Made by a program: the position numbers and the translations under genes
The notes under the pieces: model-generated
What the model was told of the DNA's origin: nothing
Database searches by the model: none
The model's input: only the letters and a program-made list of their open reading frames with translations
Part shown: positions 14,145 through 28,511 of the stretch, piece by piece
Layout of the letters: each line of letters begins with the position of its first letter
How positions within the stretch are numbered: the first letter of the stretch is position 1
DNA from: Beggiatoa sp.
GTDB taxonomy: Bacteria; Pseudomonadota; Gammaproteobacteria; Beggiatoales; Beggiatoaceae
Direction: 5' to 3'
Length of the DNA: 46,324 bases
Assembly: GCA_003245895.1 (NCBI GenBank)
Contig: QKBZ01000011.1
Coordinates: 1-46,324, forward strand

Positions 14145-14163
14145 CAGTGTAACTCCTTTATTC

Positions 14164-27188: not shown

Positions 27189-27816
27189 ACTGAGGAAAAC
27201 ACTTATCGTGTAGTGAGGGAGAGTGTGGCAGGATTCAAGGCTATAAACAGTGATTATCAAACGTTTGTTTGCATTGCAACAGTTTATTAAACTAATAATT
27301 TTCAAACGCTTAGTCGCCAAATTTATAATGACAATGCGTTAATGTTCGGTGCAAATTGTTACGCTTCTAAGACATTTGTTTCAAAAATGCAGCAACCTTA
27401 CCGTCTATAGGTTTTATAACATATGTAGCAGTTTTGTCATCAAAATCGTGCTAGTGTTAAACAAAACGCCATAAGACAGCAATGACACTACTGCACTGCG
27501 GTAACGCTAAAACATGGTAAATAATTTGCATATATTTTAGTGTTGCGCACTGATAAAAAAGTGCGACAGAGTAGGCAAGCTATTTATGCGGCATTGCAAC
27601 ACAGTGCCAAATAGTAGAAAACAGTTGTCAGAAGTATATGAGTTGCAAGGTGTATTTTTTTATCATATAATGATGAATTGAGTGCAGCACTGCAACATTT
27701 GTACAGATTGCATTTAAGCTGGATACGGCAAACGTTCGCTGATAAAACAGGCTAAGCACCCCACGCTAAGGCCAATATAAGATAAGTAGCGAAACAGAGC
27801 CACAGGAGGAAAGTAA
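27189..27816. other. Gene-free region with repeated TTGCA/TGCAA motifs
   Basis: About 630 bp without a protein-like frame. The pentamer TTGCA or its complement recurs unusually often (for example near 27268, 27351, 27530, 27594, 27640, 27690, 27708), with the 10-mer GCATTGCAAC found twice (about 27269 and 27593). More follow at 27940 and 28005. It precedes the small RNA array on the plus strand. Confidence 0.4.
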
Positions 27817-27894: not shown

Positions 27895-27986
27895 AGCTTG
27901 ACAGTTTAGCTCAAATGAATTAACTTTATCTCAACATGCTGCAACGCACAATTTAAAGCGAAGCAGAAATGAGAAACCGAATTTTA

Positions 27987-28083
27987 GTACTGTGTCTTAA
28001 AGACAATGCAAATTGAGACAGAGTACACATAGGCTCCTCCATCCTCCTTTGGTGGTTTGGCGCGGTAAATGCCGCGCCTTTTT
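27987..28083 (+). ncRNA. Putative small RNA, unit 1 of tandem array
   Basis: Three structures follow one another. A 5' hairpin pairs GTACTGTGTCT (27987-27997) with AGACAGAGTAC (28016-28026), one mismatch in eleven. The conserved box then starts with CTCCTCC (28034-28040) and folds CCATC (28039-28043) to GGTGG (28051-28055) with loop CTCCTTT. The terminator pairs GGCGCGG (28059-28065) with CCGCGCC (28072-28078) and ends in TTTTT. The loop is the complement of AAAGGAG. The 5' end is not determined; a TTGACA at 27898-27903 is a possible -35 further upstream, with a poor -10. Confidence 0.6.
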
Positions 28084-28155
28084 AGAACATAGTTGTTATT
28101 TCAGTACAACGGCAAATCGACCCAGTCGTAAGCCAGCGCACCAACAAGGGTAAGA

Positions 28156-28273
28156 CGCTTGTAAGACTTACAAACTTAGGCCATTTTGGGATAAGTTTTT
28201 ATGATGGGATCGAACTAGACAGTCTCCTCCATCCTCCTTTGGTGGTTTGGCGCGGTAAATGCCGCGCCTTTTT
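28156..28273 (+). ncRNA. Putative small RNA, unit 2 of tandem array
   Basis: The 50 nt box 28224-28273 is identical to the box of unit 1: CTCCTCC, hairpin CCATC/GGTGG with loop CTCCTTT (28234-28240), then the GGCGCGG/CCGCGCC terminator with T tract (28269-28273). Sequence upstream differs from unit 1, but again contains a dyad, TTGTAA-GAC-TTACAA near 28159-28173. The 5' boundary is an estimate. The gap to unit 1 is 140 nt, enough for its own promoter. Confidence 0.6.
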
Positions 28274-28285
28274 AACGCTTTACGA

Positions 28286-28366
28286 TGTTGTTGTGAAAAC
28301 CAACAGCATAAAGTCTCCTCCACCCTCCTTTGGTGGTTTGGCGCGGATTAGACCGCGCCCCTTTTT
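28286..28366 (+). ncRNA. Putative small RNA, unit 3 of tandem array
   Basis: The box 28315-28366 differs from units 1 and 2 in ways that keep the fold. The hairpin arm is CCACC (28320-28324), turning a U-G pair with GGTGG (28332-28336) into C-G, while the loop CTCCTTT is unchanged. The terminator stem GGCGCGG/CCGCGCC is unchanged while its loop is ATTAGA instead of TAAATG. A small dyad TGTTG/CAACA (28286-28305) lies upstream. Only 41 nt separate it from unit 2, so it may lack its own promoter and arise by read-through or processing. Confidence 0.6.
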
Positions 28367-28461: not shown

Positions 28462-28511
28462 TCTCCGTCCTTCTCTTCCTTAGCAGTTTGGCGCAGTAAT
28501 GTGCTGTCCTC
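28462..28511 (+). pseudogene. Decayed fourth copy of the small RNA unit
   Basis: TCTCCGTCCTTCTCTTCCTT, then AGCAGTTTGGCGCAGTAATG and TGCTGTCCTC, aligns end to end with the conserved box of units 1-3, but the CTCCTTT loop and the long terminator stem are lost and there is no T tract. A short GCGCA-GTAA-TGTGC stem remains possible. It looks like a duplicated unit that has degenerated. Confidence 0.55.

Follow-up and report, generated by a model that had tools for sequence, protein, structure and literature searches.

A tandem array of sibling small RNA genes

The 46,324-nt stretch of Beggiatoa sp. DNA analysed here (the window) carries three boxes arranged in tandem on the plus strand (Table 1), each consisting of a CUCCUCC lead, a hairpin presenting the loop CUCCUUU and a terminator. 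Their positions match those given in an initial annotation made from sequence alone, as do the identity of units 1 and 2 (50/50 nt) and the changes in unit 3, which has a T-to-C change in the hairpin stem (turning a U-G pair into C-G), another terminator loop and two additional C. Other structural details were revised. The terminator stem described as 7 bp has that length in unit 3 and 8 bp in each of units 1 and 2. The 5-bp hairpin of units 1 and 2 folds at −20.4 kcal/mol, against −21.8 kcal/mol for a shifted alternative, although homologues prefer the 5-bp register (97.8% of cells paired) and the hairpin of betaproteobacterial members, which reads CCACC...GGTGG, is in line with it. A dyad had been described before every unit; it is strong at unit 1 and moderate at unit 3, but not supported at unit 2 (z −0.5), with a mean z of −1.9 over 29 copies in the window organism's family.

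Table 1 Features of the small RNA array in the window
Feature	Position	Strand	Basis or remark
Putative −35, TTGACA (first promoter of array)	27898..27903	+	Most of 13 related loci share this geometry
Putative weak −10, TAACTT	27921..27926	+	Genome G018 has TAACTTTATCTC at the corresponding position
Putative PhaR-type operator, CTGCAACGCACAA	27939..27951	+	Palindrome; fits EMSA-tested motif of PMC12542648
Unit 1 variable 5' hairpin (SL1)	27987..28026	+	z −3.8 against dinucleotide shuffles
Unit 1 core	28034..28083	+	CUCCUCC lead, hairpin with CUCCUUU, terminator
Possible unit 2 −10, TATGAT	28200..28205	+	Sequence only; without a good −35
Unit 2 core	28224..28273	+	Sequence, relaxed RF02278/NmsRb match, covariance model
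Unit 3 variable 5' hairpin (SL1)	28277..28314	+	z −1.6; aligns with NmsRb SL1 in Rfam
Unit 3 core	28315..28366	+	Sequence, relaxed RF02278/NmsRb match, covariance model

The 4.9-Mb genome holds four copies: the three array boxes and one on contig C113 (L004, 1500–1561), between proA-like and mdh/sucA-like genes (names assigned by reading the sequence). No PhaR motif occurs within 250 nt upstream of this fourth copy. It adjoins mdh/sucA-like genes, and TCA enzymes are NmsR targets elsewhere. Downstream of the array, positions 28475–28510 contain a partial box, 76% similar (CTTCCTTAGCAGTTTGGCGCAGTAA), that the covariance model described below does not match; it is perhaps a decayed fourth unit.

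A structured family in many genera

A covariance model built from 23 relatives scores the three boxes, which belong to its seed, at 71–77 bits (E 6e-19 or better), with the next-best match in the window at 12.5 bits; relatives outside the seed reach up to 73.9 bits. With this model, 121 of the 369 genomes sampled from the class, in 95 of 272 genera, proved to carry the family. In an alignment of 75 distinct sequences, 98% of cells are paired and double-sided changes number 102 (22 in shuffles), with 32 further pair types. Compensatory change occurs at nine pairs, eight of them terminator pairs and the ninth in SL2, the hairpin that bears the CUCCUUU loop. The sequence of SL2 is nearly invariant across the alignment, and evidence for this hairpin is limited by the choice of some members by core identity and fit to the model. 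An exact core 20-mer retrieves at least 117 bacterial DNA stretches; almost every match listed comes from Gammaproteobacteria (Thiothrix, Thiocapsa, Thioalkalivibrio, Halochromatium, Sedimenticola, Thiomargarita, Arenicella and others), and L061 (Comamonadaceae) and L087 (Gallionellaceae) are among them as exceptions. The initial reading, in which related sRNA genes stand in tandem and each RNA bears two anti-Shine-Dalgarno (anti-SD) elements, is supported, and the family is structured and conserved across many genera. One copy, on the minus strand of L006 (~1512–1560), has a 5' hairpin with a second C/U-rich stretch (CUCCUCCUCUCCUCCUUU), so that a single RNA would present additional anti-SD elements.

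Probable kinship with RF02278 and NmsR

Rfam at its own cut-offs returned no matches in the window, and we found no description of such RNAs from this lineage in the open papers searched, in agreement with the suggestion that the family was possibly undescribed there. At relaxed thresholds the three units match RF02278 with 35.9, 35.3 and 29.5 bits (E 2.5e-5, 3.7e-5 and 1e-3), none reaching the gathering cut-off of 50 bits, which was exceeded in 0 of 43 genomes of the window's order. Model positions 1–64 are aligned for every unit, covering the two-hairpin layout, the CUCCUCC lead and the C/U-rich first loop. L061 and L087, which share the exact core 20-mer with the window units, score above the RF02278 cut-off. 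The NmsRb family (RF02877) matches with 29.1, 25.5 and 20.9 bits, below its 52-bit gathering cut-off, and the match runs full length, SL1 included (E 0.026). The array also has the NmsR layout of SL1, anti-SD1, SL2 with anti-SD2, and SL3, in tandem, with the SL1 of unit 2 weak.

On this sequence evidence, the window units are probably sRNAs of the RF02278 (toxic, double-hairpin or S17) and NmsR kind. The likeness to neisserial sibling sRNAs proposed at the outset was well placed, but its description as mere analogy probably understates it: the RF02278 match and the exact core 20-mer common to members above the cut-off argue that the neisserial sRNAs are relatives. RF02278 RNAs have been called toxic or double-hairpin, their likeness to NmsR has already been noted, and overexpression of one of them slows growth (PMC5688073). 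Bordetella S17 is of the same kind and represses an mRNA (PMC11722255), and the tandem siblings NmsRA and NmsRB, which are under RelA control, use two anti-SD elements to repress mRNAs of the TCA cycle (PMC5362039). Toxic sRNAs have been stated to be exclusive to Betaproteobacteria (PMC7011215); the family now reaches a large share of the Gammaproteobacteria sampled here, and two Rfam families, RF02278 and RF02877, become connected. The alphaproteobacterial alpha-r8 family was absent from the relaxed Rfam matches of the window. Caulobacter vibrioides, a control genome that has alpha-r8 sRNAs and PhaR, gave a weak RF02278 match (E ≤ 0.01) that was gone at 1e-5; a distant link between RF02278 and alpha-r8 is possible.

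A putative PhaR-type operator at the array promoter

A strict sigma-70 scan found nothing at the array, whose putative promoter was missed by the simple scanner because its −10 is poor. Just downstream of this putative −10, and missed by the initial annotation, is a palindrome of the form YGCRNYGCR, the Sinorhizobium PhaR motif tested by EMSA (for example TTTTGTTGCAGTGCACAAAGA; PMC12542648). From its sequence it looks like a putative PhaR binding site. The window operator is one base off a perfect site and TGCRNYGCA cores number nine in the 46-kb window, so that taken by itself it carries little weight. Units 2 and 3 lack a PhaR-type operator of their own. Another good PhaR-like palindrome (TTTGCATTGCAACA) lies at 27270–27278, just within the upstream minus-strand gene.

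The genome itself encodes PhaR (PF07879, contig C206) and, by Pfam, PhaC and phasins; contig C206 bears PhaR together with one phasin having a perfect motif site. With one mismatch allowed, the genome contains 59 occurrences of the motif TTGCARYGCACAA and 15 of the reversed control pattern. Three of the four perfect sites are at phasin genes, two of them separating a phasin gene from a phaB-like one; phaC has a near-perfect site. By eye, a phasin promoter of this genome resembles the array promoter in geometry.

Among relatives in the window's order, 14 have both the sRNA and PhaR, 5 the sRNA only, 4 PhaR only and 20 neither (Fisher p 2.3e-4, uncorrected for phylogeny). An sRNA locus with the motif 69–194 nt upstream of the core is present in 13 of the 14 with both, G007 being the exception, and in 0 of 4 sRNA-bearing relatives that have neither PhaR nor PhaC (G004, G009, G013 and G015), which carry a TTGACTAATAT...YATAAT promoter instead; G017, with a weak sRNA match and no PhaR, was left out of these promoter classes. 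Loci of the two kinds occur together in G006, G014 and G031. Overall the motif occurs at 13 of 23 loci (p ~1e-12 against local background, uncorrected for relatedness), and most of these 13 by eye share the order TTGACA, 16–17 nt, −10, ~13 nt, operator. The second promoter class, TTGACTAATAT-N12-YATAAT upstream of the core, was seen at L006, L008, L014, L015, L024, L031, L044 and L318; an AATAT kept in its spacer suggests a regulator site.

The motif across Proteobacteria

Burkholderiaceae carry RF02278 RNAs in 71 of 81 sampled genera, and the presence of PhaR in all 81 genomes ruled out their use as a PhaR-minus contrast. TGCRNYGCA lies within 150 nt upstream of 60 of 70 sRNA loci there (median 67 nt), compared with 2.4% of background windows at the same loci and 2.9 of 70 in dinucleotide shuffles. 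Unselected positions beyond the 9-mer are conserved too, and the flanks have diverged. Outside the window's family, sRNA loci, nearly all of them gammaproteobacterial, have the motif in 6 of 88 cases, which rules out general PhaR control of the whole sRNA family. Most other gammaproteobacterial loci have a common, different promoter, TTGAC...ATATTAGA. This third promoter class, seen among the 88 outside loci (for example L055, L081 and L094), reads TTGACA-N17-GAWAMT; a conserved stretch resembling TATATTAGAAACTACTGATGTGCTGA spans its −10 and start. Since the motif is absent from most other Gammaproteobacteria, the predicted PhaR control characterises two large groups rather than the family as a whole, and within these the putative link is conserved across dozens of genera. 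It is apparently new in the open literature; an earlier mention in Kimelman 2012 or Sass 2019 is possible.

These distributions bear on the best-surviving alternative, in which the anti-SD sRNA family is real, the motif at 27939 arose by chance or has lost its function, and the array answers to another regulator, for instance through the stringent response as NmsR does under RelA (PMC5362039). Other conserved promoters at most other gammaproteobacterial loci and the single deviating base of the window site are compatible with such control, but segregation of the motif with phaR inside one family (13/14 versus 0/4), a promoter geometry repeated in most of 13 related loci and the 60/70 Burkholderiaceae loci make it unlikely.

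Targets and proposed mechanism

The initial annotation had pointed to an alpha/beta hydrolase gene in the window with a Shine-Dalgarno sequence (AAAGGAG, 14153–14159) complementary to the loop. That sequence is present but ordinary: the start ranks third of 35 window ORF starts for sRNA pairing, and the gene is unsupported as a special target. With NmsR-like repression of TCA-cycle mRNAs in view, pairing potential was compared at gltA and sdhC starts, and it was indistinguishable from that of background ORFs in relatives with and without the sRNA; a difference between the two groups at sdhC (p 0.012) was unsupported against background ORFs.

The ordinary gltA and sdhC starts would also fit an alternative in which the RNAs are general translation brakes, mimicking the 3' end of 16S rRNA and competing broadly for Shine-Dalgarno sequences with no defined regulon. 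The CCUCC-rich, nearly invariant core suits that idea, and passages of PMC5688073 and PMC4603805 cite several relatives as toxic to E. coli. We nevertheless think it improbable, slightly more so than control by another regulator: mutational data on NmsR show selective targeting (PMC5362039), S17 does not impair E. coli BL21 growing exponentially in LB (PMC11722255), and variable SL1 hairpins and tandem siblings suggest some sharing of tasks. That the boxes are mere DNA repeats or transcription terminators without RNA function is highly improbable, since, for all their terminator-like hairpins, four copies in the whole genome rule out the scattered repeat that the initial annotation had allowed for, the anti-SD core is kept across many genera, the terminator stems covary and expression of RF02278 relatives has been detected by Northern blot or dRNA-seq (PMC4603805, PMC5688073).

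We favour, at a probability of roughly 70%, a tandem anti-SD sRNA array that has a PhaR-type operator, is derepressed on PHB synthesis and blocks translation. The units belong to a structured family continuous with RF02278 members, and the upstream PhaR-type motif tracks the presence of the phaR gene; we infer that the array is transcribed, and likewise the binding of PhaR, the direction of its effect, the target mRNAs and the use of a chaperone. Without PHB, free PhaR would bind the operator of the first promoter and repress the array; PHB granules would titrate PhaR, and the derepressed array would let the RNAs accumulate. Each RNA would then pair with the ribosome-binding sites of many mRNAs through its single-stranded CUCCUCC and its CUCCUUU loop, masking Shine-Dalgarno sequences and blocking translation, as judged from characterised relatives, and the RNAs would cut further uptake and central carbon flux. 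Repression, and not activation, is suggested by an operator over the start or promoter and by PhaR's known mode of action (PMC9049629). MmgR, an alphaproteobacterial anti-SD sRNA, is bound and repressed by PhaR (PMC12542648) and is, by analogy, a precedent for a PhaR-repressed anti-SD RNA. RF02278 RNAs were reported to rise in glucose medium (PMC5688073), an observation that would fit the PHB model.

With somewhat less assurance, we lean towards a widespread circuit in which PhaR represses anti-SD sRNAs and so couples PHB-granule state to translation. The RNAs would be of RF02278 type in Burkholderiaceae and this gammaproteobacterial family, and of MmgR type (alpha-r8) in Alphaproteobacteria. 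In Burkholderia, RF02278 sRNAs are abundant and slow growth, and such a circuit, if true, would explain the slowing of growth and carbon use by 'toxic' sRNAs. The conserved PhaR-type operator supplies a specific candidate regulator and signal, the carbon storage state, testable in PHB producers.

Comparison with known systems

NmsRA/NmsRB (NgncR_162/163; RF02877) share with the window array the tandem siblings, SL1, a single-stranded anti-SD, the CUCCUUU loop in SL2 and an SL3 that starts UUGGCGCG. The window match is below threshold (21–29 bits, cut-off 52) and the SL2 stem differs in sequence; the NmsRs are RelA-controlled, and a PhaR link for them was not found in the literature examined. 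The alpha-r8 RNAs (MmgR, SisA–D) are likewise anti-SD sRNAs, concerned with carbon storage and metabolism, and a genome often has several siblings; they belong to Alphaproteobacteria, and mmgR is bound and repressed by PhaR. RF02278 (ncS03/05/27/62, bdhR1 and Bordetella S17) differs from the window units in its longer first hairpin, in copies reported as not tandem in Burkholderia and in its betaproteobacterial range, the window units scoring 29.5–35.9 bits against the cut-off of 50. Both have the CUCCUCC lead, anti-SD hairpin and GC terminator, the exact core 20-mer is common to the window units and members above the cut-off, and a PhaR-type motif lies upstream in both, for RF02278 at 60/70 Burkholderiaceae loci.
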